The translations under genes were made by a program, and so were the position numbers. A DNA stretch of 64,000 nt from Atriophallophorus winterbourni (Eukaryota > Platyhelminthes > Trematoda > Plagiorchiida > Microphallidae), in assembly GCA_013407085.1 (NCBI GenBank), contig JACCGJ010009907.1, positions 1 to 64,000 on the forward strand, in the 5' to 3' direction. The notes under the pieces were generated by a model that searched no databases, was not told the DNA's origin, and worked only from the letters and a program-made list of their open reading frames with translations. Every line of letters starts with the position of its first letter. Position 1 is the first letter of the stretch. Of the stretch, positions 3,135 through 64,000 are shown one piece after another.

Positions 3135-3215
3135 CATGCACATGAGCATTTTTAGAACCTTGAGATTCTTCCATATATATACTCATATCCGCATCACGCT
3201 ACAACCGGTTTCTTG
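3135..3215 (-). repeat. Decayed fragment of the hammerhead-unit family (long-stem variant)
   Basis: The stretch has the TGCACATGAGCAT-type start and, at about 3197-3215, the complement of the GAAACCGG segment seen in intact hammerheads of this window. The CTGANGA half of the core is not present, so no active ribozyme is expected. Confidence 0.35.
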
Positions 3216-3614
3216 CTATTTATGCACGCCAAGTGATGGCAAGCTTTTCAATCTGAACCGGTTGAGAGCACAAACCAAGGCACGAAATGTGCTAATCCGT
3301 GAACTGCTGTTTTCCGACGATGCAGCCTTTATTGCTCTAATCCCAAGAGTCACCTTCAGCAGTCTCCCTAATGGACTGTTTTTTCGTCGGCAGCAAAGAA
3401 CTTCGGTCGAACAATCAGCAATGAGCCAATACTAAATTTCTGGCCAAGGGACTGTATCGCCTCCCATCATAACTGTTGGAAACTGTCAGCTTGAATCAAT
3501 ACATCCTTCACATACCTTGGTTTCAACCATTGCGGATAACCTCTCTCTAGACACGGAGATTGATAAGCGGATTAGCAGAGCAGCTGTCATTTTGTCCCGA
3601 TTGAACTCTCGTGT

Positions 3615-10700: not shown

Positions 10701-13700
10701 AATCATAATCATCAAAAAAAGAAAGTTTGTAATGAATCGGTGAGAGTAGTTTATTGGTAACGTTTCGCTTCTGACACAGAAGATTCGTCAGACCAAGGGT
10801 GTCAGTACGAACAGAGATCAAGCTTAAATTTCATTCACCTGACCAATCACAAGCTGGTTAAGAACTGCACAGTCCATGATGGGTTCTGCGCTCGTTAAGA
10901 AGGACAGGCGCGTTCAATATCAACTGACGCGCCGCCACCCCTACGTGCCGTATAATCCCTAAATTGTTTCAGCCTTGGCAGGTGTGAATGACATCTGCTG
11001 ACCGATTAGCTCGGTGCGCGCACTAGGGGTCACGCATGTTGATGTTTATCCGCTGCATAACCGAACGCCAGATTGTGGAGATATCAGTCCCATCCACCTT
11101 AGAGACTGCGTTCTTACCGGACTTTGTTATCTCAACCGCCTCAGCGTAAAGTCGTTCAACATCATCGTTGCAAAACTGATACACATCTCAAAATTGATTT
11201 TGATTTTATAATATCGAATTCGAATAAAAATTAGGGATAAAAGGGCAGATAAATCCGAAAAATTGTGTGTAAGTGTGGCATACAAGTATAACTTTGTTAT
11301 CCATTTTAACACTATTTCAATGCTCACTGAACCTGATCTTACTGTCTCCACCTGACGACGGCAAACAGCCAGCAACCGGTAGTGCTGTGTAAGGGATGGG
11401 GATGTGAGCAACACATTACATTGGTCATCCATAAGCGCCTTGAGTGCTCGACCAAGAATCACTTTGTAATTCGGTGTCTGAACATCGTGGTTCGTTGTAC
11501 GAACCCTATGTAACAGTGGCATACAAGTATAACTCTGTTTACCAATTTATCACTGTTTCAAGGCTCATTGAACCTGATCTTACTGTCTCCACCTGACGAC
11601 GGCAAACAGCCAGAAACCGGTAGTGCGGTGTAAGGGATGGGGATGTGAGCAACACATTACTCCCATAACTATTAGGTTAACAAATGGTCATTTGAGTTTT
11701 TTATTTGTTAATACTGCAAAAAATAACACATTTGCGTTCACTGTGAATGCAATCAGAATCGGTCTGAAATTCAACACTGTTCGATCACGGTAGCGTTTTG
11801 TATTTCGAAAATTAGAACTCGAAGCAATGGTTTACATCCACAGTTTCATTTTGACAATTATTTACCTTTTCTAATTATGTTCTTCTGTCACACCTTTAGT
11901 TTTGCAGGTGTGCACAATCTAAATTGAGCTTGATTGTAAGCAAGCGAATTGCTCTTGTCATATCTGTGCGATTAACTAACCGCCAATACTTGATGAAGTG
12001 CTGCTTAATACGACATCTGTTCAGCGTAAAACTTTGGTTCTGACGTAGCTTCGGTATTTTGGATATTCCGCTGCAAACATCTCGAACTGTTTGCTACAAT
12101 CATTCAATTGTAAGTACCGCCAAACCACTTTAAGCGCCAAATACGGTACCGTCTACCTGAGATCAACCACGTTGTTTGCGTAACTTTCAACATTTCTTTC
12201 TTCCTCAATCCTCGTAATTTTGCAACATTAAAGTTATGAATACTAGTTTCTGTACCTATATATGAACCATTTGCTTGAGATTAATTTTATCTATCAATGT
12301 TATATTGTAAAAAGAATGATGTACTTCAAAGAAATTAGTCTTTATTGGTTAAGTAAATGTGATTAGATTTAAATTCAAACGTGAAATTTTCTGATTACCA
12401 TGAGAATCAAATTCACAAAATTATTTCGTTGAAATGACATGTATATGTTCTTCCAATACTTTTATACTAAATTTTCATACTTTGGAACCCATGCTACATA
12501 GGGTTCTTGCAACGAACCATGATCTTCGAATACGGAATCACACAACTATTATTGCCCAAGCGCTCAACACGCAATTTAACAGTTACATTGTACAATATTT
12601 TCGTTATTTCACGGTCATCTGAGCTTGATCTCCCCGTATATACTTCAATTCAATTCAATTCAATTTTATTGGTCTAAAAAGCATATAGCTTGACAAAAAC
12701 CATAGAATAATATGAAAATTACGAATAACATGGGTAGAAAAACGGATTTGTTTGCTTACTGAGCAGTTCAGGAATCAAGTAAAAATCCATTGGACAGAAA
12801 CTGGTTTCAAAGTTCAAAACTTTTATGGTGTAAAATATATAGGTTCAAAGTTTGGATTGGTCAACATGAAATTGTCCAAATTCGATTTGAATATATCCAA
12901 GTTGGGTGAATGTGCAACATTACAAGATAGGTAGTTCCAGGTAAACATACACGTACAGAATAAAAGTACCTTCGACAGTTTAGTCTCGAGTCGGGAATAT
13001 GTACTGTATAGTCGTGACTCCGGCTGGATCTGGGTGGTAGTCGCGTGAATAGTTGATTAAGGGGATGTTTGGGGGTATGCAGTATATTGAACATAACTAT
13101 CAAATCACCTCCAAATTGATTGAGACTTGCAATACGATCTTCGTATTGTTTGCGCTTCAAACCGCGTACTTAGTAAATGTCGAACCTTGTGAAGGCAATT
13201 GTGGTGTGTAAGGGATGGGGATGTGAACACCACAATACTTTGGTCTTTCATATGCGCCTCGAGCGCGTGGCCAGGAATCACTTTGTGATTCTGTATTTGA
13301 ACACCGTGGTTCTTTGTAAGAACCCTATATAACAGTGGCATACAAATATAACTTTGTTTACCGCTTTTTCACTGTTTCAAGGCTCACTGAACCTGATCTT
13401 ACTGTCTCCACCTGACGATGGCAAACAGCCTGAAACCGGTAGTGGTGTGTAAGGGATGGGGATGTGAGCACCACAATACTTTGGTCTTTCATATGCGCCT
13501 CGAGCGCTTGGCCAGGAATCACTTTGTGATTCTGTATTTGAACATCTTGGTTCTTTGTATGAACCCTATATAACAGTGGTATATAAATATAACTTTGCAA
13601 TTGTGTAGCGTTCTTGTAGATAATGTGTGCGCCCTAGTTTACTTTACAGAATTATTTTGTTAAAAAAATTAAAGATTGATTTTCGAAGATTCTTCTCTAG

Positions 13701-16700: not shown

Positions 16701-19700
16701 ATTAGCATCCATCGCTAATGCATTGCACACCTTCACGTTGACACCAGCTTTATGAACTCAAGTATGTCTAGCTTGATATGGGTGGATTTTTTAGCCATCT
16801 TGCTGTCAGAGACACCTCCACGACATAGTTGAGGCGTTTGATGATCATCTTCTCATGGAGAACATTGCATTGTACTCTATACGAATTCTTGAAACTTGAT
16901 TTTTTTTCGTGGGGTGTGAATGATGGAAAAGCATGCAAATGAATATTTTGTTTCATGGTTATGGGTTCAACCCCATTTAACATGTGTTTGGACACATGCT
17001 TTGAACAGGTTGGTCGTACCAGCCTTATCCAACAGTGGCATACAAGCACTCCTTGTTTGATTTTTTTTAATTTATGATTTTCGTAATATATACTTAATTA
17101 TTTACACTTAAAGTCATGAAGTAAGAAATCTTATACTATGTATAATAGATGTGTAACTGCTCTTTTTAGACAAATTTATCTTGACTTAATTAAGTCGTTT
17201 CCAAGTTCCATTTGACGAAGCGAATCGATAAAACTGTTTAAACTATATTCCAGTAATTATCATCCCAAAACATGTTTGTCCCTATTGGTGACATTCGATA
17301 ACCAATTTGGCTTTACAACGTAATATTAATAAAAATTGCTAGATATTACAATAACTACATTCCTATTAGGCAATGTAATGGAAAATGTTCGTGACCGATC
17401 GGGGGATCATTATCATGAAAAAAGAAAGTTTTTAATGAATCGGTGAGAGTAGTTTATTGGTAACGTTTCGCTTCTGACTCAGAAGCTTCGTCAGATCAAG
17501 GATGTCAGTACGAATAGAGATCAAGCTTAAATTTCATTCACCTGACCAATCATAAGCTGGTTAAGAACTGCACAGTCCATGGTGGGTTCTACGCTCGTTA
17601 AGACAGACAGGCGCGAGCATCATCAACTGACGCACCACCACCCCTACTTGACGTATAATCCCTCAATTGTTTTGGTCTTGGTAGGTGTGAATGACATCGG
17701 TGCGCACACCAGGGGTCACGCACGTTAATGTTGATGCGCTGCAGAACCGGACGCCAGATTGTGGAGATATCAGCCCCATCGACGTTATTGACTACCTTCT
17801 TACTGACATTTGTTATCTCAACCGTCTCAGCGTGAACTCGTTCGTTGTATGGTTTTATTCCCCGCCTTATCACTTTTACGTTGTCAAGATCAACGCTGTG
17901 ACCTGTGTCCAGCACGTTTTCAGCTAGTGCTAAATCGCTTATCAGTGATTGATATTCACTGGAATTGCGTGGAAGCTTACCAATTCGATTTTTTCTTCAC
18001 TTATTCTAGTTTTGAGTTCTCTGGATGTTTGCCCGATATATACTTCCGAGAAACCCTTACAGTTGATTTTATATACGCAATTCGTCGCGCAACCTACAGG
18101 TGTTTTATCCTTGAGATGCGGTAATACGGACCGAAGCGTTCTACCCCCTTTATACGTTACTCGCATACCTGCGTTATTCAAGATTCGACTGATCCCCTTT
18201 GAAGCATCCTTAACCTAAAGTATAGAAACTGTTGCACGCCAAACATATTCTGTTTTGTGTGCTGGGTATTTAACCCGTTTCAGTTAGCATTTAATTAAAC
18301 TCTTAGGGTAATCATGATCAGCAAGCCGACGACTAACTTCGTGATGTGCTCGATTTTATTCGTTTCATCGCCGAACAAGCATTCAACTTTGTACAACAGC
18401 GATTTCGCAACTGAATTAAATACTTTTTGGGGGCGCGCTGTTGAGTACCGCAAGACCGCATCTGTGTCGATTAGTTAACGATAGACCGTAGTGCTTATTC
18501 AACCATTCTGCTTTCGCGTGAGCTAGTCCAAGAATGAAATTGTCCCTTCTGTCGACTCACTTTCCTTTGTAACTTGGATTTTGGGATCCAAGTTGCTAAG
18601 GTAACTATGGAATGCTTAATTTTATTTTTTTAATTTTTTTTCAATTTTTCAACTCTTTGAGATGTATCAATTACCGAGTAACCAATTTTACGATGATGTC
18701 TGTCGTTCCAAGTAAAATTCATTTGACAGTTAAAGAGGTTCCTAGCAAAATCAATCATATTTTGACATGCAACGTATCAGTTATCCGAAATAATTACTCT
18801 GGAGAGTATGAAAATATTTTAGAATTCGCGTTTCCTTCTGTCAGCGTTTACACAAGCGGTACACAGCTTGTACAATTATAAAAATAATAATATTAATAAT
18901 AATAATAATAACAATAATAATAATAATAATAATTAATATTATTATTTTTAGGGTAGAATATTTGCTAAAAGTCCTTTCGTAAGAATCGAACGATGATTGG
19001 AATTGGTGCAACTGAAAATACATGATTGAACTTTCAAAAGCATGAAATTTGCTGAAATCTGCATTAAATTTTTCATAAAAATTTCACAATCAATAAACGG
19101 ACATACCATCAGCATCGACTTGACGTATCATACTTTTTATTTGTGTTTTCGAAGCGTTGTGTCCTAAATAATTCAATGCGGTTTCCAATTCTTCACTTGA
19201 GATGGTGCCGTCTCCATTGTTGTCGAAAAAGTGAAATGCCCATCGAATATCTAAAAGTTTTAAGTAATTATAGTAACACAAATTTTGATTTTTTAATTAT
19301 TTCAGAACTTTGGAAATATAAATTTATGTTTCTGCCCGACAACTTCTATGATATACCCGTTGAATCTTTAAATACTCTTAAAAATATCTTATTTCTTATT
19401 AATGTCGCCACATTATAGAAGGAACATTATTAACAAAATATTTACGAACAGAAAATAGCGAGAGTTTAGTGCTAAAAGCAATGCTATATATTGTCTTTAG
19501 TTGTTGGTTGATCTTAAAATAAAATATCAAATAATTGTAAACATTCTAGAAAATATGCATCTTTTGCAATATTTTTTAATTGTTTTGACTATAACATTAT
19601 TTCTAAATATTTAATAAATATTAAATTCTATCAAATTTTGAATGTGATTTTTCTAAATTAAAAAATAAATGTCACCTATTTTGCGAGTATTTATTCAACG

Positions 19701-22700: not shown

Positions 22701-24786
22701 AGTCACGCAAACTGATAACAGATATTAAAAGTTAGTAAACTTATGTGTTGCTCACACTTTGGTCATCCAAAAGCGCCTTGAGTGCTTGACCACGAATCAC
22801 TAAGTGATTCTGTGTTTGAACATCGTGGTTCGTTGTACGAACCCTATGCAACAGTGGCATACAAGTATAACCTTGTTTACCATTTATCCACTGTGTCAAG
22901 GCTCACTGAACCTAATCTAACTGTCTCCTTATGATGACGGCAAGCAGCCAGAAACCGGTAGTGGAGTGTATTTTCGGGGGATGTGAGCAACACATCACTT
23001 TGGTCATCCATAAGCGCCTTGAGTGCTTGACCACGAATCACTATGTGATTCCGTGTTTGAACATCGTGGTTCGTTGCATGAACTCTACGCAACAGTGGCA
23101 TTCAAGTATTATCTTGTTTAGTAAACTTATATTTTACTTCAGAATGTAAACTATCCCTAATTACTCGAACAAGTTTAAACGTGGTCGAATTTAGACCTTT
23201 GTTGCTTTCGAACCAAGCTGCGGTATTTTTGCTGGCAATTTTATGTCAGCCTTCGGATGTTTTTTTATAGAAAGCTGCACTTTTACCCCAGCAAGGGCTT
23301 TTGGATAGCAGAATCTAACGTTTTCAAGCAATCGATTTCTATATAGTGGCAGATCGGATTAGATAGCGTACGTCATGCTAATTGATAAAAGTTAACATTT
23401 AATCAATTTAAGCATTTTCCACGATAGTTCGACTACAATGGTAATCTGTTCATCCCGATCATCACAGAATTTCGCGGAACAAAATACCGTAAAACGGTTT
23501 GAACTACGTAAAATTATTTGTATACCATGCATTTGTCGCTTTTGTGAAAGAGAAAAATCGAATATTCAATTAATATATTTTCTGTTAGTTAATTATATAT
23601 TAATACACAAGTATTATTATCTATATTATTTCATGTGAGTTCAATTTGCACGTTGGAGTCAGATAATATAACATAAGGTTTAAACAGATTATTGTTTTAC
23701 AATAGTTTGAGAACCTCAAGTCAGAAGAAATGAATAACTTTGCTTGTTCTGATAAGCATATGCACTGATCCAGTTCAAACAGTTAATATTCACAAAACAC
23801 CAAGGATAATTTCGGAATCAATATAGGTTCTACAGGAGTCGCAACGTCTAAAATACTTATTAGTTACTTTAAGGAATCCACTCAAATCTTTTTCATCTTT
23901 TGGACCATACCAACACAAACTAATTCTTAACATTTAGCGATTATTAGTTTTAATCAATTCATTCGTGTAAAAATCGTTACACCTTTTGTTTTTGGAAACA
24001 AAGTAACAAAATTTAATCGACCAGTATTTGGAAAAAGAAGTCTTTGATAGAATTGAACGCCCTTGTTACACCGTGCATTGTGTATTGTAAAATGGAATAT
24101 CGAGATGGATTGAATCACGTTCGCCAAGCAATTTGATTGTTGAGAAATATTCTTTTGGAATTAATAAATCTTTATACACGTTTTTCAAACAAAAACACAT
24201 TTATCAGCTGTTAAAAATGTCGGCTTAGTTTCCTGATGTATTTTTGAAAACATTTCTATTAATTTACGTAAACAGTCAAGCTAGCACGTATATTTTCCTA
24301 GCTTTGAAGTCAAGCTATTTATTTCAAATTGGAAAATGATAGAATAAACATAAATCAAAATCGAATAAAAAATATCAACGGTTGCTTTCTGATTTATAAT
24401 CACATTTGCATTATATTACACCAAATCTGCTTCTAGTTTTCGTAAGAGTTCTGGAAGTAGCAACATTTCTATGCAAAATCCTTCTAAATGCCTTCGCGCT
24501 TTGTTTACTAAAGATAACAAATAGAGTAATTTTATAGAGTCCATCAATAACAGTAAAATTCCAATTGAAGATCTCGTGCTCATAGCAGTGAGTCTGACAC
24601 TTCATATTCACATAATCGTACGTTGTCCACGTGTGCTGATGGTTTAGGTCACTGTTTTTATTGAATATTATTGGAGTTTGATTGCAACAAAAATGCATCT
24701 TGCTTACCAGCCAATTGTTCTTTAGTGAGAATTCCTTCCTCTATCAAATCTTGAGCAAATTGTTCATCATTCTCTGCCTCTTGCAT
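4774..24786 (-). CDS. Calmodulin-like protein with four EF-hands (five coding exons)
   Basis: Coding exons in order of transcription are 24786-24708, 19250-19107, 10265-10144, 7616-7469 and 4796-4774. Junction phases are 1, 1, 0 and 1, and all agree. Introns are about 5.5, 8.8, 2.5 and 2.7 kb and begin GT and end AG. The predicted product has 171 residues. Calcium loops lie at residues 36-47, 72-83, 118-129 and 154-165; each has Asp at position 1, Gly at 6 and Glu at 12, so all four should bind Ca2+. Calmodulin has 149 residues or so. This protein has about 16 extra acidic N-terminal residues, a linker between the two lobes about nine residues longer (Ser/Asn-rich, residues 90-107), and ends six residues after loop 4. 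It is likely a cytosolic Ca2+ sensor. Troponin C or a flatworm-specific calmodulin-like protein are alternatives. The promoter and polyadenylation signal were not identified, and an upstream exon or trans-splice site is possible. Confidence 0.88.
5390..6170 (-). mobile_element. RTE-like LINE fragment inside intron 4
   Basis: Read on the minus strand it follows the same order as the 3230-4345 copy: the segment before the thumb (6150-6000), a frame-broken KLTVKT...YSACILNAL and HERKLNAFHL segment (5960-5790), then RPHLRYKDVCK and the basic RRRR region with the finger remnant (5650-5390). Stops and shifts are frequent. It lies in the last intron of the EF-hand gene, in the gene's orientation. 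Confidence 0.65.
7469..7616 (-). CDS. EF-hand gene, exon 4 (EF-hand 3 and most of EF-hand 4)
   Basis: Acceptor TTTTCACAG ends at 7617 and donor GTAAGG starts at 7468. The exon encodes residues 116-164: loop 3 (DHNGDGYIDAAE), the long helix containing LMNKLGESLSPQEIEQMI, and loop 4 up to its eleventh residue (DSDGDGKVGFE). It starts in phase 0 and ends in phase 1. Confidence 0.92.
8630..8700 (+). repeat. Dispersed repeat shared with 16250-16325 (opposite strand)
   Basis: TTGACCTcAAGGATGAATxGGG followed by GTGAAACGCGGGGG recurs as the reverse complement at about 16270-16320, with an extra 15 bases or so between the two blocks here. The family is not identified. Confidence 0.4.
10144..10265 (-). 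CDS. EF-hand gene, exon 3 (rest of EF-hand 2 and inter-lobe linker)
   Basis: Acceptor TCATAACTAG ends at 10266 and donor GTTAGT starts at 10143. It encodes residues 76-115 plus the last two bases of Gly75. These are the second half of loop 2 (GDGTLNFRE), helix FLKAM, a linker rich in Ser and Asn, and the start of EF-hand 3 (EELYRRAFA). The acceptor has a weak pyrimidine tract, but both phases and the split calcium loop match exons 2 and 4 exactly. Confidence 0.88.
10665..11170 (-). mobile_element. Penelope-like element, 3' end (type A, copy 1)
   Basis: On the minus strand the end of a GIY-YIG endonuclease is readable from 11170 (VERLYAEAVEITKSGKNAV, then DISTIWRSVMQRININ). A non-coding tail with a hammerhead (10754-10796) and a terminal segment down to about 10665 follow. 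The copy at 17370-18560 matches it along its whole length. It is 5' truncated and lies in intron 2 of the EF-hand gene. Confidence 0.75.
10754..10796 (-). ncRNA. Hammerhead ribozyme, PLE type A (copy 1)
   Basis: On the minus strand, TTGGT is followed by CTGACGA, a hairpin with CTTCTG/CAGAAG arms, GAAAC, GTT and ACCAA. Helix I is UUGGU:ACCAA (5 bp), the core is CUGACGA...GAAA, helix III is a minimal AC/GU, and cleavage is predicted after GUU. All conserved core bases are present. A 10.1/11.1 irregularity lies at the base of helix II. Hammerheads of this kind are known in PLEs. Confidence 0.75.
11346..11387 (+). ncRNA. Hammerhead motif, 241-bp unit family, damaged
   Basis: CTCCAC and CTGACGA are intact, but the second core strand reads GCAA instead of GAAA, which should abolish cleavage. 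Confidence 0.6.
11587..11628 (+). ncRNA. Hammerhead ribozyme, 241-bp unit family, core intact
   Basis: CTCCAC, CTGACGA, helix II GGC-AAACA-GCC, GAAA, palindromic ACCGGT and predicted cleavage after GUA. Helix I is only 3 bp close to the core because the 3' strand reads GTGCGG. The self-complementary helix III without a loop suggests action as a dimer in tandem transcripts. Confidence 0.75.
11663..12480. other. Intron 2 sequence, no gene recognised
   Basis: AT-rich intronic sequence. No domain, RNA or transposon end was recognised. Confidence 0.45.
12484..12600 (-). repeat. Fragment of the 241-bp hammerhead unit, no ribozyme
   Basis: The CATAGGGTTCTTGCAACGAACCATGAT stretch and the following segment ending near AAGCGCTCAA match, in reverse orientation, the part of the unit upstream of its hammerhead. 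The hammerhead itself is absent. Confidence 0.55.
13204..13596 (+). mobile_element. Retrozyme-like insertion, 241-bp unit, about 1.6 copies, 9-bp target duplication
   Basis: AAGGGATGGGG recurs at 13210 and 13451, a 241-bp period. The insertion is flanked by GCAATTGTG at 13195-13203 and 13597-13605. It interrupts a CR1-like LINE relic. It contains one hammerhead. Confidence 0.75.
13406..13447 (+). ncRNA. Hammerhead ribozyme, 241-bp unit family, core intact
   Basis: CTCCAC, CTGACGA, GGC-AAACA-GCC, GAAA, ACCGGT, predicted cleavage after GUA, then GTGGTG. Helix I is CCAC:GUGG. The 10.1/11.1 position is U/U. Confidence 0.75.
13651..14559. other. Intron 2 sequence, no gene recognised
   Basis: Very AT-rich. 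No open frame of note and no recognisable element. Confidence 0.45.
14560..15610 (+). mobile_element. Possible heavily decayed Penelope-like reverse transcriptase
   Basis: A segment near 14855-14960 reads ERNIVILLADK followed by a stop and TIITMAMKH. This resembles the N-terminal block of PLE reverse transcriptases, which have a NIVILPADKG-like motif. A better preserved open piece at 15419-15604 contains the segments FHYLDFNSVISNIG and IFIGMPWNSIYNSK. Stops and shifts are frequent, and the usual catalytic YVDD was not found. The 15419-15604 piece could belong to something else. Confidence 0.35.
15611..16909. other. Intron 2 sequence, no gene recognised apart from a short dispersed repeat
   Basis: The only recognisable piece is the repeat at about 16250-16325, which matches 8630-8700 on the other strand. 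Confidence 0.4.
16910..17045 (-). repeat. Fragment of the long-stem hammerhead-unit family
   Basis: AAAGCATGCAAATGAAT and, at the other end, CAACAGTGGCATACAAG match the ends of the hammerhead units, while the middle has diverged and lacks a hammerhead core. Confidence 0.4.
17457..17499 (-). ncRNA. Hammerhead ribozyme, PLE type A (copy 2)
   Basis: On the minus strand: TTGAT, CTGACGA, a 7-bp hairpin GCTTCTG/CAGAAGC, GAAAC, GTT, ACCAA. The core is intact. Helix I has one A/C mismatch. Helix II is perfect, unlike copy 1. Confidence 0.75.
17942..18181 (-). pseudogene. PLE GIY-YIG endonuclease core fragment
   Basis: A 79-codon open piece with CVYKINCKGFSEVYIGQTSR, which carries the V-Y-x(n)-Y-I-G pair of a GIY-YIG nuclease. 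The fold would nick target DNA to prime reverse transcription in PLEs. It ends early by a stop and the C-terminal half is in another frame at 17598-17915. Confidence 0.75.
18882..18950. repeat. AAT/ATT microsatellite
   Basis: About 70 bases of mostly AAT repeats with a few interruptions, followed by ATT repeats that could fold back on them. Confidence 0.9.
19107..19250 (-). CDS. EF-hand gene, exon 2 (EF-hand 1 and start of EF-hand 2)
   Basis: Acceptor AAACTTTTAG ends at 19251 and donor GTATGT starts at 19106. It encodes residues 27-75: IRWAFHFF, calcium loop 1 (DNNGDGTISSEE), the helix LETALNYLGH, and the first residues of loop 2 (VDADG). Both ends are phase 1 and fit exons 1 and 3. Confidence 0.92.
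19690..19875 (+). repeat. Terminal segment of PLE type B
   Basis: GATTGCACTCAAATTTCTTTGCATTAT and the following ACGATCGG...CCAAACATATTCCAAT (19802-19862) are the reverse complement of 48190-48275 and resemble the 3' end at 49600-49622. No coding part is attached, so this is a lone PLE end. The left limit is uncertain. Confidence 0.55.
21014..21970. mobile_element. Paired direct repeats with LTR-like ends (possible TRIM element)
   Basis: Two related copies, 21014-21267 (254 bp) and 21707-21970 (264 bp), both start TGTAAAC and end ...CA. They share long blocks such as TTGATACTCTAATTCGATTA and CCCGTTTGAGCAGCCCCT. About 440 bp without a coding frame lies between them. The layout fits a miniature LTR retrotransposon without genes. 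No target-site duplication was seen and the copies have diverged, so a plain segmental duplication is an alternative. Confidence 0.5.
21971..22731. other. Intron 1 sequence, no gene recognised
   Basis: AT-rich sequence without a recognised element. Confidence 0.45.
22745..23117 (+). mobile_element. Retrozyme-like insertion, 241-bp unit, about 1.5 copies, 13-bp target duplication
   Basis: The insertion is flanked by TTAGTAAACTTAT at 22732-22744 and 23118-23130. It contains two copies of the GCGCCTTGAGTGCTTGACCA segment (22772 and 23016, about 240 apart) and one damaged hammerhead. The first 11 bases are the reverse complement of the unit's own GTGAGCAACAC, as if the end had snapped back. It lies in intron 1. 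Confidence 0.8.
22925..22966 (+). ncRNA. Hammerhead motif, 241-bp unit family, damaged
   Basis: The 3' half is intact (GAAA, ACCGGT, A, GTGGAG), but the 5' core reads ATGATGA instead of CTGATGA and helix I has changed to CTCCTT. Confidence 0.6.
23131..24400. other. Intron 1 sequence, no gene recognised
   Basis: AT-rich sequence; nothing recognised. Confidence 0.45.
24708..24786 (-). CDS. EF-hand gene, exon 1 with start codon
   Basis: ATG at 24786-24784 opens an acidic N-terminus (MQEAENDEQF...) that leads into LTKEQLA, the segment just before EF-hand 1. Donor GTAAGC begins at 24707. The exon ends in phase 1; its last G plus AT of exon 2 gives Asp27. An in-frame TGA lies ten codons upstream, and no other ATG is available between. 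An upstream coding exon spliced into those ten codons cannot be excluded. Confidence 0.82.
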
Positions 24787-25562: not shown

Positions 25563-25805
25563 TTTAGAATTTTATATGCGCCTCGAGCGCTTGGCAAGGA
25601 ATCACTTCGTGATTATTTATTTGAACATCGTGGTTCTTTGTAGGAACCCTATATAACAGTGGCATACAGATTTGACTTTGTTTACCGCTTTTCCACTGTT
25701 TCAAGCCTCACTGAACCTGATATTACTGTCTCCACCTGACGATGGCAAACAGCCTGAAACCTGTAGTGTTGTGTAAGGGATGGGGATGTTAGCGCCACAA
25801 TACAT
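25563..25805 (+). mobile_element. Retrozyme-like insertion, single 241-bp unit, 10-bp target duplication
   Basis: About one full unit (243 bp), flanked by TAATTTAGAA at 25553-25562 and 25806-25815. It contains one hammerhead near its 3' end. Confidence 0.75.
25730..25771 (+). ncRNA. Hammerhead ribozyme, 241-bp unit family, near intact
   Basis: CTCCAC, CTGACGA, GGC-AAACA-GCC, GAAA and cleavage triplet GUA are present. The helix III palindrome is changed to ACCTGT, which weakens it. Confidence 0.65.
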
Positions 25806-26044
25806 TAATTTAGAAATCAATTCATTACTTCATTTTGCACCTGTTTGTTCAATAAAAGTCTAGTTGAAAATTCGTTTAAGCTGTTAACGATTAAGATTGG
25901 TATCTAATCTATAAAAAATAAGTGTCATACTATTTTATATAAAACCATTTAGGTTACCTCGATTCGATCTTTGAATATTCGTACATATGCTGAGAAAATA
26001 TTTAACTCTTCCATATAGCGGTACATATACTTCCTGCCGTTAAA

Positions 26045-26080
26045 CACCACAACTGGTTTCTGGTCGTCATCAGGTGAAAA
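26045..26080 (-). ncRNA. Hammerhead relic, helix II shortened
   Basis: On the minus strand CACCTGATGACG is followed directly by ACCAGAAACCAG and TTGTGGTG. The GGC-AAACA loop segment is deleted. Confidence 0.45.
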
Positions 26081-26127
26081 CTGCAAGATTACGATCATAA
26101 TCGACATTGAGACTTCGAAAATTCAAT

Positions 26128-26222
26128 AAACCTGTCTCCACCTGATGACGGCAAACAGCCAGAAACCGGTAGTGAAGTGTAATTTGGGGAAGATGTGAGC
26201 AACACATCACTTTGGTCAATAC
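26128..26222 (+). repeat. Partial 241-bp unit with intact hammerhead
   Basis: The piece runs from CTGTCTCC through the hammerhead (26136-26177) to GAGCAACACATCACTTTGGTCA. The rest of the unit is missing. Together with the minus-strand relic at 26045-26080 it forms an inverted pair about 50 bases apart. Confidence 0.65.
26136..26177 (+). ncRNA. Hammerhead ribozyme, 241-bp unit family, core intact
   Basis: CTCCAC, CTGATGA, GGC-AAACA-GCC, GAAA, ACCGGT, cleavage after GUA, then GTGAAG. Helix I is 3 bp next to the core. Confidence 0.75.
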
Positions 26223-29374: not shown

Positions 29375-29490
29375 TTCAACAAAAAATTCATTTGCATGCT
29401 TTTCGGTCACACGCACCCCACGACCGGTTTCGTACTGTTTGCACTCATCAGGTAGGGACAGTGAGATCAGGATCCGCATGTACTTTAACA
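29375..29490 (-). repeat. Long-stem hammerhead unit fragment downstream of PLE C
   Basis: It starts TTCATTTGCATGCTTTTCGG on the plus strand and carries an intact hammerhead on the minus strand. It begins directly at the end of the PLE coding region, so it may be the PLE terminal repeat in reverse orientation or an independent insertion. Confidence 0.6.
29416..29457 (-). ncRNA. Hammerhead ribozyme, long-stem variant, fully canonical
   Basis: On the minus strand: CCCTAC, CTGATGA, helix II GTGC-AAACA-GTAC, GAAA, ACCGGT, predicted cleavage after GUC, GTGGGG. Helix I CCCUAC:GUGGGG pairs fully with one G-U. The 10.1/11.1 pair is G-C as in classic hammerheads. Of this family it is the best preserved copy in the window. 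Confidence 0.85.
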
Positions 29491-41185: not shown

Positions 41186-41246
41186 AAACGTCTGTGAATA
41201 ATTAATATAATGATTTAACAACAAGCAATCTGAAAATTACTGTGAT

Positions 41247-41500
41247 TTGAGGATTGTGAGCAGAGCATTAGATTAGTGTTTTATAAGCGTCTTGAGTGCT
41301 TGGAACAAAATCACTTTGAGATTCTCTATACGAACATAATGGTTCGTTGTAAGCATCCTATTTAACAGTGACATTCAAGCATTATTTGTTTACTACTATA
41401 CCACTTTTCCAATTCTCACTGAACCTAAGCTGATTGCCCCAAACTGATAACTGGAAACCGTCAGAAATCGGTTGTTGTTTGCGACACCGTGTTATGCTAC
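41247..41500 (+). repeat. Decayed 241-bp hammerhead unit
   Basis: AAGCGTCTTGAGTGCTTGGAAC (41286), GTAAGCATCCTATTTAACAG (41350) and TTCTCACTGAACCTAAGCT (41415) follow the unit order. The hammerhead region (41428-41480) reads CCAAACTGATAACTGGAAAC..., with several core changes. Confidence 0.6.
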
Positions 41501-43239: not shown

Positions 43240-43350
43240 AAACTTGTTTATCATTCCTTAACTGTTTCAAGCACATGCGGATCCTGATCCTACTGCCCCT
43301 ACCTGATGAGTGCAAACAGCACGAATCCGGTCGTGGGATGTGTGTGATGG
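43240..43350 (+). repeat. Long-stem hammerhead unit fragment
   Basis: Contains TTTCAAGCACATGCGGATCC and a hammerhead at 43296-43337. It is related to the copy at 29375-29490, in the opposite orientation. Confidence 0.6.
43296..43337 (+). ncRNA. Hammerhead motif, long-stem variant, one core change
   Basis: CCCTAC, CTGATGA, perfect helix II GTGC-AAACA-GCAC, then GAAT instead of GAAA, CCGGTC, GTGGGA. The change of A15.1 removes the A-U pair of helix III at the cleavage site, so activity is doubtful. Confidence 0.65.
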
Positions 43351-45319
43351 AACTGTATGCATATACTGATTTTTGAACCTGAACAATAATTTATGCGTGT
43401 TTGTTACCATTGTTATTCTTTCATAAACGGCTTAAAATATCATGTTATAAGTTATTTTTATCACTCGGAAGCCGATGGCAACTTGCGTGTACGAACTTTA
43501 TACCTTACTATTTGACAGCGCAACTTGAATCATCTACACAAGAGAACAAACAATGTAGATTAAGTTCCAATAAAGTATCACGCGTCCCATCCTAGACATA
43601 ACATGAGTGAAGAAATAACAAATCCAGAAGTGATAGCAGAGAATGATTTTTGTCGTCATTTGCATCGACAACGTTTTACTTGACTACACATTTCGATTTC
43701 GGAGCAACAATCCTTCCCTCAGCGTTCATAACAATATACAGTATTCGATGAATCCTACACTCACACCATTTCGATATGGCTATATGAAATAGAATATTTA
43801 TATTTCATAATATCAATAATATGAGTCGTAGAAATGAGTAGGCGGACATTTCGGCGTTTGACCCATGTTTGGTACAAGGTCATTTGTGAGTTCAGAAAAT
43901 TTGAATGCATTTGGCATTAACCCTACGTAGTGAAAGAAACGTGCTCTCGACTGCTCGCTTTGTATTTGGGTTAAGCGCCAGCCAGAGTGGATACTGCTTC
44001 TTGCAACTGAACGTAGAGTTAAAAGACACGAGTTAAACATTGTTGATTAGCAGCTACATATCGATCAGCTAGGTTATACATACATGAATATCACTACTCG
44101 GTACCAGATTCAGTGTTCTTTGAATAAGAAGATCAACTTTGCTTGAATAACACCGGCTTGATCTTTCAGCTTCGAATACAATTAGTTTTAACGCGGGCAT
44201 AAATTGTTTGATCGCTTCTCAAACGAGGAGTCAAAAATGCATGAAATTCATCGCTAACTTGTGTGAATGTGGGTATTCTGTTATTGCATTGTTTTTTAAA
44301 TACTTGATGTGATCACTTGGCACTTAGAGATTTTATTAAACAGTAAATAAAAAATTTAAACTAGCACGTGGAACTTTACCCCATTTGTATGTAACCTTGG
44401 TTAACGATGATTAAGTTAAAAAAATAAATTATTATAAACTGATTTATTTTATTTTAGGCAATGTTGTGCCATGCAATACTTACCGAGACCCAGGATTGAA
44501 AGGTGCAATCCCGTTTTGCCGAGTGTTCTGCAAAACGAACATTTCAACGCTATTACTTTGTAAACAATCGGGGAAAGTTTGTATTTAATTCTGGATTAAA
44601 AGCATATTCGCTTTACACACAGTTCAAATGTCCTATTGAAATAGTTTTGCCAATCCTTGCTGTTCTTGTGGACCTGACTTGATTTATATGAAATTTTAAA
44701 TAATAAAATCGTCTGATAATTCATTTGCCTTTGTGGGCATAATCGTTGGTTCGATGCTAATTAAAATTGAGTTTGATAGAATTTTTAGAAAAATAATAAA
44801 GACAAGACCATTAGAAACAAACATTGATATCCATTGTACCTGGGGATATCTCGAATGATTAAAAAATGCATTAGGCCATCATTATTTCATCGACAGAGAA
44901 AAATGAAAGCTCGAAATTAATTTTTCTCCGCACTTTTATTTTTTTCATTCAACATGGAACTTTTTAACATGTTTCTATGTAAACGAAAGAAGTTTGATGC
45001 TCCACACGATTTGAATACTGGGCAATTTTATTTCGAACTACCATCATAACGCTCAATTCCAGTGCAGACGAAACCGAAGCTGTTTTGGATTTGAATGTGA
45101 CTGGCAATCTCAAATGTTCTCATTAAACTTCAACTTTTCTCCCATAATTGTTATTCGTATTAAAAAATTTTGTTGGTAAATTAATTTGATTTGCTGAAAA
45201 TTCGTTTTAACAATTAAAGCATTCTTATTCTTTCTTTAACAATAGAAATGATCGGTAATTTCTTAATGTTTGTTGTTGGAATTCTTCGCATGTCGATCTT
45301 ATGCTTCAAGGGCGTTTAA
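43351..45319. other. No gene recognised
   Basis: About 2 kb of AT-rich sequence. The open frame 43813-44040 on the minus strand has no recognisable domain. Confidence 0.4.
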
Positions 45320-53351: not shown

Positions 53352-53852
53352 ATTCATAGATTTATTCATAGATTATATGCAGGTAAAAAGCTATGCTTAA
53401 CAAGACCCACAAAAATGTACATCGGGTCGGATGGTAAAAATATCAAAATATTGTTAGATTATTGTCAAACACAAAAAAACATACTTTTCCATGTGGATAT
53501 CTAGTGATTTTTTGAAAACTTCAACAGTTCCAGATTGTACCACATGAGTAGGTAAACTGTTCCACAGTTGCACATTGCGAACGGGAAATGCATATTTGCG
53601 GCAGTTCAACCTGCTATGCTGTTGGTAAAGTTTTAATTGGTGACCTCGCAGATGTGTGTTATGGGAAAGATGAAACAAATGACCGCAAGGATGATTTGTT
53701 TGATTAAGCACTGTCCAAATGAATATAAGTGCTCCTCGCTTCCGTCTGTATTCAGCCGAATGCAAATTCAATAATTTAAGTCGCGTTTCGTATGGATAAT
53801 TTGATAGTCCCAGGACGAGTTTTGTCGCTCTGCGCTGTGGAGTTTCTAATAG
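53352..53852 (-). mobile_element. CR1-like LINE (family 2), young 5'-truncated insertion
   Basis: This 500-bp segment is nearly identical to 30108-30590, including the ATTCATAGATTT tail. The frame 53900-53454 (minus) covers LLETPQRRATKLVLGLSNYP to the C-terminus and differs at only a few residues before the end. The homology stops sharply at 53852, after CTAATAGCA. Such a short 3' piece is the normal product of incomplete target-primed reverse transcription. Confidence 0.82.
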
Positions 53853-53879
53853 CATATACTCTTTGTCGACAACAGCCAT

Positions 53880-55250: not shown

Positions 55251-55293
55251 TGAGTTCCTATTTAATGTGTTGCTCACATCCCCCGAAATTACA

Positions 55294-55335
55294 CTCCACT
55301 ACCGGTTTCTGGCTGTTTGCCGTCATCAGGTGGAG
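55294..55335 (-). ncRNA. Hammerhead ribozyme, 241-bp unit family, best copy
   Basis: On the minus strand: CTCCAC, CTGATGA, C, GGC-AAACA-GCC, A, GAAA, ACCGGT, cleavage after GUA, GTGGAG. Helix I CUCCAC:GUGGAG is perfect (6 bp). The 10.1/11.1 position is C/A rather than G-C. Helix III is a loopless palindrome, which suits a two-molecule (dimeric) fold in tandem RNA. Confidence 0.82.
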
Positions 55336-55534
55336 ACAGTAAGATTGGGTTCAGTGACCCTTGAAACAGTGGATAAATGGTAAACAAGATTATACTTGAA
55401 TGCCACTGTTGCATAGGGTTCGTACAACAAACCACGATGTTCAAACACAGAATCACAAAGTGATTCTTGGTTAAGCCCTCAAGGCGCTTGTGGATAACCA
55501 AAGTAATGTGTTGCTCACATCCCCTGAAATTTCA

Positions 55535-55576
55535 CTCCACTACTGGTTTCTGGCTGTTTGCCGTCATCAGGTGGAG
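55535..55576 (-). ncRNA. Hammerhead ribozyme, 241-bp unit family, core intact
   Basis: As the copy at 55294-55335, but the helix III palindrome reads ACCAGT. Helix I is perfect. Confidence 0.75.
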
Positions 55577-55775
55577 ACAGTAAGATTAGGTTCAGTGTGC
55601 CTTGAAACAGTGGATAAATGGTAAACAAGATTATACTTGAATGCCACTGTTGCATAGGGTTCGTACAACGAACCACGATGTTCAAACACAGAATCGCAAA
55701 GTGATTCTTGGTTAAGCATTCAAGGTGCTTGTGCATAACCAAAGTAATGTGTTGCTCACATCCCCCGAAATTACA

Positions 55776-55817
55776 CTCCACTACCGGTTTCTGGCTGTTT
55801 GCCGTCAGCCGTTGGAG
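55776..55817 (-). ncRNA. Hammerhead motif, 241-bp unit family, damaged
   Basis: The 3' half (GAAA, ACCGGT, A, GTGGAG) is intact, but CCTGATGA is replaced by ACGGCTGA, so the core is lost. Confidence 0.6.
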
Positions 55818-55874
55818 ACAGTAAGATTGGGTTCAGTGAGCCTTGAAACAGTGGATAAATGAGTTCCTATTTAT

Positions 55875-57550
55875 TGGGTAACACCAAAAGGTCGCTTTAG
55901 GTGATATCTGCGTTGGATCAGCCGCTACGGCTGGAGCGACGCTTCTCGTTGGCGCATCATATGAAATTGCGAAGCTCTTGCAAAAATTAATCACAATAAT
56001 AAAATGTTTAAATAATGCTCAAAATGATAATTTCATCCTTCACAAACGAACTTGGATCTGTGTCAATTGGTGAATGGATGATATTTCATCTCGTACAAGT
56101 GATGTACGCTGCGCAAAAATTACCTTAGTTCATTTTGACGGGCACCGCAAGGTAGAAAAATCGAATCATGGAGATGAATTCCTTAATTCGGATTGGAATG
56201 ATGGCGCATATATGTTCTTTTACTTCACCTCAGTTCGATGAGCACGTCGAGTAAGTGTAAATATGAATCAAGATCATAAAAATTACAGCGGGTAAAAGAA
56301 GCTACGAATTTAAAACAAATATATCAATCTTCCTCTCCGATTTCACAGGTGGGACCGCAGCTTAAGCATACCTCATTTCTAAACTGGAAAATGATCTTCC
56401 TTTAATAATTAAAACAGACTTGTAGGACAATCTTATTTGGGAAAAGGTGAATTGAAACCTGATCACCACAAAAATTCCACCCTGGTCTTCATCGTGTCTG
56501 GCGAGGATACATTGACAACAAACAAAGCGATTCCGGTAAAGTGTCAATTCAGAACCATTGAAAGTTCCTCTAACTATTAACATGCTTATATATCAAAACA
56601 AATTGGCAGCATTTGGAGATGCTTGCAAGTGGAACAATTTAAGTTGGAATGAATTAACCTGAAAACAATAATTATCGTCGTCCTGGCAAGCAAAACTGTG
56701 TTTGTTTCGAAAGCTTTTGTTATTGTTAGAGCTCAAAGCACTTGTTGATTACAAACGTTGCCCAAATGTTTAGTCATATGAGCAGAAAAACAAGATTTAC
56801 TAATTCTGGTCTTTTCTATCATGTCCTACTTTGTATGAGTTCTAGGTTCCTAATTCACTCAGGTCCTGATAACATTTCAGATTTGGGATTAATGGTTGAC
56901 AGATTAATTGGTGTTACACTAACCACTGGAGGAAAACTTTCCGGTGTACATCCATCGTAGACAACATAAATTAGAATCGCATTGTTATAATATCCAAGTT
57001 GAAGTCTAAATATATGGAGAAATGTTTCGATTCTTCCAGATTCATTATTTAGACGTGCTTACGGCAATTCCGCCTAAAACGTAGAACATTTAACAAACGT
57101 TTGAAATCGTTTTTGCTACTGGCTCGGACATGTGAAATTTTATTTAGAATCTTGTATGTAAGAGTTGCATGGACGTTGATTAATCAGCTGTAGTTGTTGC
57201 GGTATGGTGAAAAACAGCTTAACTAATTTCGTTCCACATTGCTCACCAACGAACTATGTGAGAACTTATCCTCCTATAAGAATACTTCAATAAAACAAAC
57301 AATCCCAATTAGGAGATTTTCATACACGCCATTTCCTTCTTGTTGTTGTTACGCTGATGGAACCGCAGTCCCACATAAATCGTCAACGTTATTTTCAAAC
57401 TGTCAAAGACTGTTTTTTTCCTGGAATAAGGTATAATCGAACACTAAAAGGAACTAATTCTCATCAGATCATTTGCTGTTCTCTAATGTTTATATAGTTT
57501 GTAATGTACAATCAGAGTAATATTGATCCTTAAATTACATCTCACTCATC
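55875..57550. other. No gene recognised
   Basis: About 1.7 kb of AT-rich sequence. Short frames such as 56742-56960 + have no recognisable domain. Confidence 0.4.
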
Positions 57551-57559: not shown

Positions 57560-60070
57560 TGCTTATTGTTGGACCAAATAATTACACTCCGTCAAAAATC
57601 TGGAATTACTTTGAATGACTTGATGTGAGGGTCTCCTAGTCCCATCGTCAAACTCCGAAGCAACAGCAGTGGAGTCAGTGCAGTATCATAGTCCTTTGGA
57701 GCTAAGTGACCATCTGGTGTTGTCCTTCGAATTCGTGTGCAACGCCAGAAGGGCGTCGGGCGACGTTAAGTTCATCAGGAGAGTCGATTACTTCGGCCTT
57801 CGCGGTGCCATTACGATTATGGAGGAAAAATATCTCGATCTTACGAATGCAGAAACTCATTGTTCTAGTCTGTTAAGTTATATCGGTACAAAACTAGACG
57901 AAAATTCTACCTGTGTTCCCAAAAGGAAATCAAGAACATTTTGCTTCAAACTCCGAAACCGCACTCGGAAGTGGATAGCCATGCGAAAGTCCGCATGGGC
58001 TGCACATAAAATAACACGAACAGACGCATCTTGGGAACACTTTCGTAGTTTTCGTAACAAGGTGACGTCCTTAATTCGAGAAGACAAGCAATATCACCAT
58101 TGGAAGCTGATCGACCAGATGGAACGACATCCTAAATTGCTGTACACCATCGTAAACACCGCGACCAAGGTTAAGCCAGGTGTATTTCCTATCCAGACAG
58201 AGAACGGACTGACTGATAATGTCAAGGATACAGCTGATGCCCTAATATCATTTTATGCGCAAGTATTGTGTCCAAAGAACGTGTCAACGCTGACGTCTTT
58301 GCCCCACCCACTACAAATCGAATGCCTTAGCAACATCGAGGTAAATCCTACGGTTGTGCGAAAGCATCTACGCGGGCTGAACGTTCGCAAATCACCAGGA
58401 GAGGATGGAATAACACCCACTGTTCTGAAGTCATGCGAGCTGGAGCTTTGTGGCCCACTAAGTGGTCTATTCAGGCACTCATTGAATACGGGAACCGTAC
58501 CAACTCAATGGAAAACCGGTGTTATCACACCAATCTACAAAGGGGGCAGTCGTTCTGATCCGGCAAATTATCGCCCTGTGACGCTTCTTTCGGCGGTTTC
58601 TAAAATTTTGGAACGCCTGGTGTGTGAACGACTTGTTGAACATCTCGAGAACCATCAGCTAATAACTTTCACACAACACGGATTTAGGAAAACATATTCA
58701 TGCCTGTCTAACTTGCTCACGACTCTAAATGACTGGACGCAAGCACTAGACCAAGGGGGTTCCGTCCATGCCGTTTACTTAGATATATCTAAAGCATTCG
58801 ACAGAGTGAATCACTCCTTACTGCTTCAGAAACTGCAGAATGTTGGCGTCATCGGAAACCTACTAACATGGTTCACAAGTTACCTGTCTGGACGCAAAGT
58901 AAAAGTCAGAATAGATGGTGAAACTTCTCGAACAATTGAAGCCATGAGCGGAGTCCCTCCGGGTTCGGTTCTCGGTCCGATACTGTTTCTCATATTTATA
59001 AACGATCTACCGAACTTACTAGCATGTAAGCTTGTTTTATTCGCAGACGATGTAAAAATCTGGACGAAGGTCAACTCTATCGAGGACTGTCAATTTCTGC
59101 AAGGAGATTTGAATAAGCTGCACCAGTGGTCAATTCAAAACAAACTGCCATTTAATTTCCGCAAGTGCAAAATGTTGCAAGTCGGAAAACCCTTTCCCTT
59201 TAACTACAAAGTTGGCAGCCACCCGCTTGAATGGAGTACATCACAAAAAGATCTCGGAATCTGGGTGTCTGGCACTTTGAAGAACAGCCTACAGTGCGAA
59301 GCCGTCTACAAGCGTGCGTGCAGCTTGCTAGGTTTACTGAAACGCATTTTCGGACGTTTCCCACCACACTCACTCGCGAAAATACTAAACACTTACATAC
59401 ATCCTGTCGTTGACTACGCTGTACAAGCTTGGACGCCATGGATGGGAAAAAAGATTTCGTCCCTCGAACAAATTTATCACAAGGCAACCAAAATGGTTAC
59501 CGGATTGAATAATTTACCCTTTGAGCAGCGACTGACCAGACTTGGACTGTGCACCCTCGAGCGCAGGCGTATCCTACACGACCTCACTCTGACATATCGA
59601 ATCATCTACGCGAAATCCCACCCTCTCAAACACCTCTTCAATTTTGGTTCCGTTATCCCCACACGCAGCCACCCTTTGACCCTTCAAATCCCACACTCAC
59701 GATTAAATTGTCGTCGTAACTTCTACGCTGTTCGTGTATGCTTCTTGTGGAATAGCTTGCCGACAGATATTGTTACTTCAGCGAACGAGCACAACTTTAA
59801 ACAAAGGTTACGAAACCTTATGTCGAGAACTACTGCGTTGGCCCCTACCTATTGATGTCTATATTTTTTAACGCACGGAACTACCGTCCATCCAAAGATT
59901 CTTTTCCCTCAGTCTGTGTTGCCATTGGGGATTATTTTTGCTCCACCTATGAAGAACATGGATATGATCATACAAGTAAGGATTTTTAATATTTTATACG
60001 TATATCCTATGGTACTGTACAGCAATTTGCTTTTTTAGCCATAAATCTTGAATCTTAAATCTTGAATCCA
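57560..60070 (+). mobile_element. CR1-like LINE (family 1), young, 5' truncated
   Basis: The element starts within the endonuclease, where a frame-broken piece around 57580-57668 resembles the STLDLILTSE region. It contains a 728-codon RT frame and ends at about 60070 in a tail of AATCTTGAATC repeats. It is the reference for the family 1 fragments at 34762-36066 and 37724-38180. Confidence 0.85.
57669..59855 (+). CDS. CR1-like LINE reverse transcriptase polyprotein, open for 728 codons
   Basis: Residues 7-20 are the end of the endonuclease (HSPLELSDHLVLSFEF). A basic spacer follows (residues 75-160). Reverse transcriptase blocks are RKSPGEDGITPTVLKSC (about 237-253), WKTGVITPIYKGG, NYRPVTLLSAVSKILERLV, QHGFRKTYSCLSNLL, AVYLDISKAFDRVNH with catalytic Asp372, GVPPGSVLGPILFLIFINDL and FADDVKIW (458-465; Asp460 and Asp461). 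A thumb region comes next, and the C-terminus is IPHSRLNCRRNFYAVRVCFL. The conserved PQG of motif B is PPG here: codon CCG, residue 431, in place of Gln. This Gln is almost invariant in such enzymes, so the copy may be inactive despite the open frame. The ATG at 57669 is just the first in frame; the real ORF2 start lay further upstream in the missing part. Confidence 0.88.
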   Translation: MESVQYHSPLELSDHLVLSFEFVCNARRASGDVKFIRRVDYFGLRGAITIMEEKYLDLTNAETHCSSLLSYIGTKLDENSTCVPKRKSRTFCFKLRNRTRKWIAMRKSAWAAHKITRTDASWEHFRSFRNKVTSLIREDKQYHHWKLIDQMERHPKLLYTIVNTATKVKPGVFPIQTENGLTDNVKDTADALISFYAQVLCPKNVSTLTSLPHPLQIECLSNIEVNPTVVRKHLRGLNVRKSPGEDGITPTVLKSCELELCGPLSGLFRHSLNTGTVPTQWKTGVITPIYKGGSRSDPANYRPVTLLSAVSKILERLVCERLVEHLENHQLITFTQHGFRKTYSCLSNLLTTLNDWTQALDQGGSVHAVYLDISKAFDRVNHSLLLQKLQNVGVIGNLLTWFTSYLSGRKVKVRIDGETSRTIEAMSGVPPGSVLGPILFLIFINDLPNLLACKLVLFADDVKIWTKVNSIEDCQFLQGDLNKLHQWSIQNKLPFNFRKCKMLQVGKPFPFNYKVGSHPLEWSTSQKDLGIWVSGTLKNSLQCEAVYKRACSLLGLLKRIFGRFPPHSLAKILNTYIHPVVDYAVQAWTPWMGKKISSLEQIYHKATKMVTGLNNLPFEQRLTRLGLCTLERRRILHDLTLTYRIIYAKSHPLKHLFNFGSVIPTRSHPLTLQIPHSRLNCRRNFYAVRVCFLWNSLPTDIVTSANEHNFKQRLRNLMSRTTALAPTY

Positions 60071-63401: not shown

Positions 63402-63860
63402 ACTGGAACCCACCTATTACGAACTCGTTTTCAACGAATTTTTGGGTTGAACGAACACACCATGATTTCCCAAATAAATTCCTTCTTTGTGAGACTATTT
63501 GATACATTCGTACAACGAATCTGTTCGTTACGAATCTCGCTTTTTACGAACACTGCACGCTCCCGACGGCTATGTTTGTTCACTAAAGTTCATACATATA
63601 ACGAACTCGCTTTGTCTTGCCTTTAACATACAACGCTCCGTCAAGAGTGGCCTACAGTACGCTAAGAATAGAACTGACACAGCTTGGCGAGACACAGGCA
63701 GCCTAGCCTACAGTGTGCTAACTGACTCGCACGCACGCACAAGAGAATTCTCTGTGACTGGTAATCACAGACCTATGACAAATTGAAATCACTCAAGCAA
63801 CCACTTCATTTGCTTCATACAGTTACACGATGGCTGGCAGAAAACGAAAACGAGAGCAAG
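63402..63860 (+). mobile_element. pogo/Tigger-like DNA transposon, 5' end
   Basis: TA is followed by CACTGGAACCCACCTATTACGAACTCG, the kind of terminal inverted repeat found in pogo/Tigger elements (CAGTGGAACCTC...ACGAAC). ACGAAT/ACGAAC repeats continue to 63610. ATG at 63830 opens MAGRKRKREQ, the basic start expected of a Tigger-type transposase, but after ten codons the frame meets the hammerhead-unit insertion. The rest lies outside the window or is lost. Confidence 0.6.
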
Positions 63861-64000
63861 ATTATACTTGAATGCCACTGTTGCATAAGGTTCGTACAAC
63901 GAACCACGATGTTCAAACACAGAATCACAAAGTGATTCTTGGTTAAGCACTCAAGGCGCTTGTGGATAACCAAAGTAATGTGTTGCTCACATCCCCGAAA
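63861..64000 (-). mobile_element. Retrozyme-like 241-bp unit, cut by window end
   Basis: AAGATTATACTTGAATGCCA through AATGTGTTGCTCACATCCCC repeats 55387-55530 almost exactly. The hammerhead would follow just beyond 64000. It sits inside the start of the pogo-like transposase frame. Confidence 0.75.

Follow-up and report, generated by a model that had tools for sequence, protein, structure and literature searches.

A 241-bp tandem array between exact 14-bp duplications

The window analysed here, a 64,000-nucleotide (64-kb) stretch of contig JACCGJ010009907.1 from the trematode Atriophallophorus winterbourni, holds at 55251–55873 a tandem array of a 241-bp unit (copy H) flanked on both sides by TGAGTTCCTATTTA, exact over 14 bases. 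TRF assigns the array a period of 241 and 2.5 copies over 55263–55861 with 94% matches, and the coordinates give 2.47 units, so that an earlier note, which had described a non-integral multimer of about 2.5 units, is borne out on this point. The RNA sense is the minus strand, in which copy H runs from its 5′ end at 55859 to a 3′ end at 55265. We number the unit from 55505 as position 1, which makes 55265 position 241. The GC content of the unit is 0.44, and among the 20 repeat families listed out of 24, the direct repeats at copy H are solely the units themselves.

The flanks had been called a clean target-site duplication, and the copies of the 14-mer are indeed exact. When the same flank windows were applied to 3000 randomly paired positions in the window, matches of at least 14 bp arose twice (lengths 16 and 37), of at least 10 bp 9 times, of at least 9 bp 19 times and of at least 6 bp 872 times. 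The array and its flanks support the claim of a multimeric insertion with target duplication. The unit had also been said to code for nothing, and no protein domain was recognised in this dispersed family; the two open frames of at least 95 aa over copy H gave no Pfam match above the cut-off (the best was zf-TRAF_2, E 0.073, 14.1 bits against 27). Of the three 241-bp-spaced hammerhead units described earlier, all three cores are present, on the minus strand (the claim had left out the strand), but the third core is broken (Table 1).

Table 1. Positions of the array, its hammerhead cores and its relatives in the window. In the sequence of core H1 a slash marks the predicted cleavage site.
Feature	Position	Strand	Remarks
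Target-site duplication, copy 1	55251..55264		14 bp, TGAGTTCCTATTTA
Copy H (array under study)	55265..55859	-	595 bp, 2.47 units of 241 bp
Target-site duplication, copy 2	55860..55873		14 bp
Hammerhead core H1, intact	55297..55329	-	CTGATGA...GAAACCGGTA/GTG, predicted cleavage after unit position 206
Hammerhead core H2, core intact	55538..55570	-	helix III palindrome broken by one change (ACCAGT)
Hammerhead core H3, broken	55779..55811	-	CGGCTGA for CTGATGA
Copy A	11268..11661	+	1.63 units, 3′ end at 4, no target duplication recognised (flank match of 4-5 bp)
Copy B	13201..13597	+	1.65 units, 3′ end at 121, 9-bp duplication 13195-13203/13597-13605
Copy C	22756..23120	+	1.51 units, 3′ end 122-125, 13-bp duplication 22732-22744/23118-23130
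Copy D	25578..25806	+	~1 unit, 3′ end near 6, 10-bp duplication 25553-25562/25806-25815
Copy E	26132..26216	+	0.35 unit, intact hammerhead core, 3′ end near 9
Copy F, old	41241..41475	+	1 to 1.2 units, 73-75% identical by BLAST
Copy G	63857..64000	-	3′ end at 121, runs off window
Relative I	43240..43336	+	G-C pair at helix II base
Relative J	29414..29467	-	canonical helix II, G-C pair at its base

The repeat is dispersed across the window

A profile built from six units and run on the 64-kb window returned 22 matches above the inclusion threshold, at 16 loci. We define the family proper as the eight loci A–H, seven of which are about 80% identical or more while F is at about 70–75%; the other eight loci are older or sister repeats whose likeness is chiefly in the hammerhead or in the sequence leading up to position 121. 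The copies are scattered and hold 0.35–2.5 units each. Within the window the 241-bp repeat is a dispersed family and not part of a long satellite block, the case that had been named as speaking against the insertion. The 3′ end of copy F is ambiguous, being placed at 208 by BLAST and at 240 or 3 by script.

Several older pieces lie around these copies. Copy E, on the plus strand, adjoins an older inverted hammerhead fragment (26127–26033, minus strand), the two together spanning 26033–26216, and copy E is perhaps an insertion into or beside an old copy. An old relative at 2910–3260 (minus strand) shows weak profile matches (2914–3239) below the inclusion threshold, together with the hammerhead-like remnants AGAAACCGGTTGTAG and CATAAACCGGCTATGG and an end near CAAATTG that resembles, by eye, the preferred 3′ end at position 121 described below. 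The sequence downstream of the hammerhead of relative J (29378–29423, minus strand) recurs as a sister repeat at 16907–16952 (plus strand) with 87% identity, and J and I have 99 bases in common at 85% (43266–43364, plus strand, on the I side).

A type I hammerhead with a palindromic helix III

Judged from its sequence, the motif is a hammerhead of type I, its core being open at helix I. Core H1 reads CTGATGA-C GGC AAACA GCC A-GAAA-CCGG-TA/GTG, and its helix I is formed by UUAC and CUCCAC paired with GUGGAG and GUAA. Helix III is the palindrome ACCGGU, with loop space of two or four bases at most, and the pair at the base of helix II (10.1–11.1) is C.A or U.U in 10 of 12 core rows. Going by eye over the conserved letters of the hammerhead, we take cores H1, H2, A2, B, D, E and J to be intact and H3, A1, C and F to be broken, with I broken in part.

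For the helices we aligned 12 cores from the window; pairing is seen in 83.2% of the 184 cells, and 6 of them have changed on both sides. None of 500 shuffles reached the paired share or the covariation score, and the values for both-side cells, both-side pairs and further pair types were reached by 2, 38 and 42 of 500, respectively; the 12 rows are related, and these shuffle tests may overstate the covariation. Sliding the partner by 1–3 columns lowers the pairing to 32–48%.

Since helix III is a palindrome, two cores can pair with each other. Two H1 stretches cofolded without constraint form a double hammerhead with both cores in place, at −36.1 against twice −14.5 kcal/mol, which is 7.1 kcal/mol below two monomers, and H1 is accordingly predicted to be most stable as a dimer. 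The full double hammerhead is the best cofold for 2 of the 12 cores (H1 and B) and not for the other ten. Lunse and colleagues reportedly worked on dimeric Penelope hammerheads. The fold of the whole unit is barely better than that of shuffles (z −1.71 for H and −0.94 for B).

Database models capture the motif weakly. Rfam gave zero matches at the gathering score in the whole window and no hammerhead in a relaxed search (E up to 1) of 901 bases; only under the laxer filters of a 136-base search does H1 appear, as Hammerhead_HH9 with 17.4 bits (E 0.044, gathering 52). Relative J comes closer, matching Hammerhead_1 at 30.8 bits (gathering 34). An Rfam match to TtnuCD25 at 55844–55918 was taken as chance, at 28 bits against a gathering score of 85. 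A search of viral_contigs and genome_contigs gave no exact match to a hammerhead pattern, which is what an animal element would lead one to expect.

Seven of eight 3′ ends fall at two phases of the unit

Target duplications were found in four of the six younger copies with both ends in the window: 14 bp in H, 13 in C, 10 in D and 9 in B, the last with strict ends only and missed with looser ones. E has a flank match of 6 bp, which is at chance level, A one of 4–5 bp and F one of 4–6 bp. The earlier note had named flanking 14-mers missing from other copies, together with a lack of empty orthologous sites, as speaking against it; three further copies carry duplications of their own, A has none, and E stays at chance level. 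Read in the RNA sense, the duplications start with TAAAT in H (55860), TTAGT in C (22732), TAATT in D (25553) and GCAAT in B (13195); an A stands third and a T fifth in 4/4, in a sample too small for a target motif.

The 3′ ends of seven of the eight copies lie at two unit phases, about 121–125 and 241–9, with that of F ambiguous; the younger copies end at the unit positions given in Table 1 for A–E and G and at 241–2 for H. Two 10-nt arcs hold 7/7 of these ends, a result reached in a fraction of 6.5e-5 of 200000 uniform draws with the arcs re-chosen for each draw. The 10-nt width was picked after the ends had been seen, and we therefore reran the count with widths of 8–16, on both hand-typed and script ends: 7/7 ends were held in seven of eight settings and 6/7 in one, with frequencies from 0/20000 to 0.001. 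When F is added at 208, 7/8 ends are held (0.0003–0.0045), and when it is added at 240, 7 or 8 of 8 (at most 0.0003). Older relatives can fall off the two phases: K ends at 178, and 208 may be the end of F. A count that includes K (178), M (114) and N (124), all older, and places F at 208 has 8 or 9 of 11 ends in the arcs (at most 0.00085).

The 5′ ends are scattered. Under strict scoring the six readable ones are at 93, 207, 2, 19, 167 and 127, without clustering (2/6), and looser scoring places A at 91, B at 183, D at 2 and E at 155. The strict 5′ end of copy B (207, with 3 bases of ambiguity) is the first base past the predicted cleavage site, and the loose one is at 183. The 5′ ends of H, C and perhaps D fall just downstream of a 3′ phase, and insertions longer than one unit span the predicted cleavage site.

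Copy C carries at its 5′ end an extra inverted piece of 14 nt, ATGTGTTGCTCACA (22743–22756), between the left duplication and unit position 2. It equals, by eye, the reverse complement of unit positions 228–241 and overlaps the duplication by two bases and the unit by one. Under twin priming, the second target strand of copy C would have been primed at the 241 phase and the first at the 121 phase. The stretch comes close to a palindrome, however, so that flipping a 5-nt loop would mimic the inverted piece.

At the 121 phase the RNA ends on a CAAG-N5/6-CTTG stem-loop. Its four pairs (G-U allowed) are kept, as a raw count, in 13 of 16 rows that include distant relatives: in 11 of the first 12, then in N and P1 of the last four, with A2, M and P2 failing. 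The stem has changed on both sides in B (CAAA/TTTG). The 241 phase has the stem-loop GATGTG-AGCAA-CACATT, which ranks in the top ten hairpins of units H and A and not in those of unit B. Stronger hairpins lie at 39–57 (H, B) and 73–89 (H, A, B), where there are no 3′ ends, so adjoining a hairpin does not single out the two phases. We also considered the unit as an old dimer, given phases about 120 nt apart, and rejected this: in 4/4 units the two halves match no better than shuffles, 215–490 of 500 of which reach the score.

Units of one insertion descend from one recent unit

Copying from a single circle would give an insertion units that start out identical, with any later differences confined to private changes. 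With each within-copy difference counted once, private and shared differences number 15 and 0 in H, 7 and 0 in B, 10 and 1 in A, and 7 and 3 in C; the one shared site of A vanishes if its last four bases are left out, and the three of C are those also seen elsewhere. Summed over pairs, which overlap and are not independent, private changes outnumber shared ones 48 to 3 within insertions and stand at 519 to 489 between them. Read from these differences, each insertion stems from one recent unit. Close relatives in different insertions are also mostly private (H–G 8 to 0, B–D 26 to 1), so the transcript of a homogeneous array would pass this test of common descent too, and the units of one insertion may also have been made alike by later homogenisation in place. 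The two 3′ phases, the scattered 5′ ends and the descent from a single monomer together suggest that reverse transcription started internally on a circular RNA.

Reverse transcriptases in the window

The window holds LINE- and LTR-type fragments. There are two long LINE-type reverse transcriptase ORFs, at 57624–59855 (plus strand) and 30187–32496 (minus strand), whose 3′ ends carry the short direct repeats AATCTTGAATCTTA and AATCTATGAATA, and the end of the second recurs at 53352–53854 with 97% identity. For the ORF at 57624–59855, the best named among 120 of 1610 relatives are from the flatworms Paragonimus westermani (51%) and Dicrocoelium dendriticum (41%); further ones among the same 120 of 1610 include Spirometra, Schistocephalus and Trichobilharzia, the krill Meganyctiphanes (37%) and a bacterial bin (37%). 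An LTR-type element is represented at 874–1963 (plus strand) by RNase H-like and integrase pieces, the integrase match being below the cut-off. No GIY-YIG match was found in the 29 of 57 window ORFs of at least 95 aa that were scanned by Pfam, and no Penelope helper among them.

The tails of the LINEs (short repeats like AATCTTG and AATCTATG) resemble, by eye, the last bases of the 121 phase. A LINE helper recognised by a shared 3′ end was rejected: in 6/6 comparisons, 39–262 of 300 shuffles reach the alignment score. A target duplication was sought for two LINE copies and none was recognised.

Relation to known elements

We assign the 241-bp family, as a new member, to the non-LTR metazoan retrozymes, a kind already known in animals and described from Acropora, Mytilus and the axolotl (Cervera and de la Pena 2020, PMC7229834); platyhelminths are already among the animals listed there with such hammerhead repeats. 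The earlier note had likened the array to metazoan retrozymes, which its hammerhead units, dispersed multimers and flanking duplications support; as a whole that interpretation is partly supported and was right in kind. As in the members described in PMC7229834, the hammerhead here is of type I, the tandem repeat lies within 150–450 bp, GC is under 50%, and target duplications, when present, exceed 4 bp. In the hammerhead itself there is likeness to the two axolotl types, in the weak palindromic helix III and the helix II mismatch: of these, one has a palindromic tetraloop on a one-pair helix III, there is a U.U at the base of helix II, and both cleave better as dimers (PMC7229834). Compared by description, the published elements range from dimers to long multimers in coral, whereas the copies here hold 0.35–2.5 units (PMC7229834). 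The preferred 3′ ends and the common descent of the units are what this family adds to the picture of metazoan retrozymes, from a small sample.

Two other groups show partial likeness. Penelope-like elements with minimal hammerheads also place a hammerhead in a tandemly arranged retroelement (PMC11167929, PMC7761336), although the open frames of the 241-bp unit have no reverse transcriptase or GIY-YIG domain. In the Penelope-like element of Anolis, reverse transcription starts inside its own RNA, at an AC-rich stem-loop with two start sites (PMC11167929), which resemble the two 3′ phases here; the likeness is suggestive and not a test of kinship. The phases here are about 120 nt apart, in contrast to 30–40 for the tail between the Anolis start sites (PMC11167929). 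Among flatworms, the Schistosoma W-elements, including SMalpha, are tandem repeats with functional hammerheads in some families, and some have autosomal copies, one with a possible target duplication (PMC8490949). By the description in that source they are satellite-like, whereas the repeats here are short dispersed insertions (PMC8490949).

Origin of the array

On this evidence, copy H is likely a non-LTR retrozyme. It was probably inserted in a single event, when an RNA, multimeric or circular and predicted to be cut by its own hammerheads, was reverse-transcribed. In the proposed cycle, dimeric hammerheads would cut the transcript made from the minus strand sense of a tandem copy, and a host ligase would circularise the 241-nt monomer. 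A reverse transcriptase from another element would then begin at either of two preferred sites and travel round the circle as many as 2.5 times. A more specific version, which we put forward tentatively and hold at less than even confidence, places two fixed internal starts about half a circle apart, each at the 3′ foot of a small stem-loop, with at most 2.5 rounds of copying, copy C having used both sites, one per target strand.

Other accounts differ in what served as template. It may have been a linear, incompletely cut multimeric transcript and not a circle, which we rate as rather unlikely: copy B starts at the predicted cleavage site (207 under strict scoring) as a 5′-OH run-off end would, and in vitro the Anolis Penelope-like element can do without hammerhead cleavage, inserting RNA that is unprocessed (PMC11167929), but the descent of each insertion from a single monomer is unlike the transcript of an old heterogeneous array, and no long array was found within the window. 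An inert repeat, with a hammerhead that has decayed or was never active and is only a look-alike, would agree with the weak Rfam score, the mismatch at the helix II base and the broken cores A1, C, F, H3 and, partly, I. We consider it improbable, as the core letters and helices are kept with covariation over 12 cores, and axolotl HHR_Amex2 cleaves, best as a dimer, despite a U.U at the same place (PMC7229834).

The tandem form itself might have arisen on the spot, a fragment somewhat longer than a monomer being inserted and further units added later by slippage or unequal crossing over. Such local duplication also yields private changes within an insertion, and copy H could be 354 nt plus one unit. 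In-place duplication should, however, need more than one unit to begin with, and A, B and C already have 1.5–1.65; moreover, four of the eight copies (A, B, C and H) are non-integral and their 3′ ends are still at the two preferred phases, and we give this account little credence. Least of all do we expect ordinary satellite DNA, or an excised DNA circle re-integrated by a DNA transposase. Tandem 241-bp units are what it predicts, yet there are sixteen dispersed loci in 64 kb, relatives included, with 0.35–2.5 units per family copy, and the unequal duplications (9–14 bp) with preferred 3′ and scattered 5′ ends fit target-primed reverse transcription better.

For the route by which metazoan retrozymes return to DNA, LINE and Penelope enzymes are both only proposed in the account of PMC7229834. 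Judged by title or by the start of the abstract, no paper listed in the literature search dealt with retrozyme insertion junctions, with most subscription journals outside the scope of the search; two of those listed name target site duplications (PMC9695139, PMC11722881). In 64 kb this family has eight copies, with eight more loci related to it; it is dense and its junctions are readable, and where the cDNA starts can be asked directly. The same junctions bear on whether the template is circular and on the endonuclease that cuts the target. If borne out genome-wide, they would amount to a junction-level map of the way from a circular RNA to a tandem DNA insertion.
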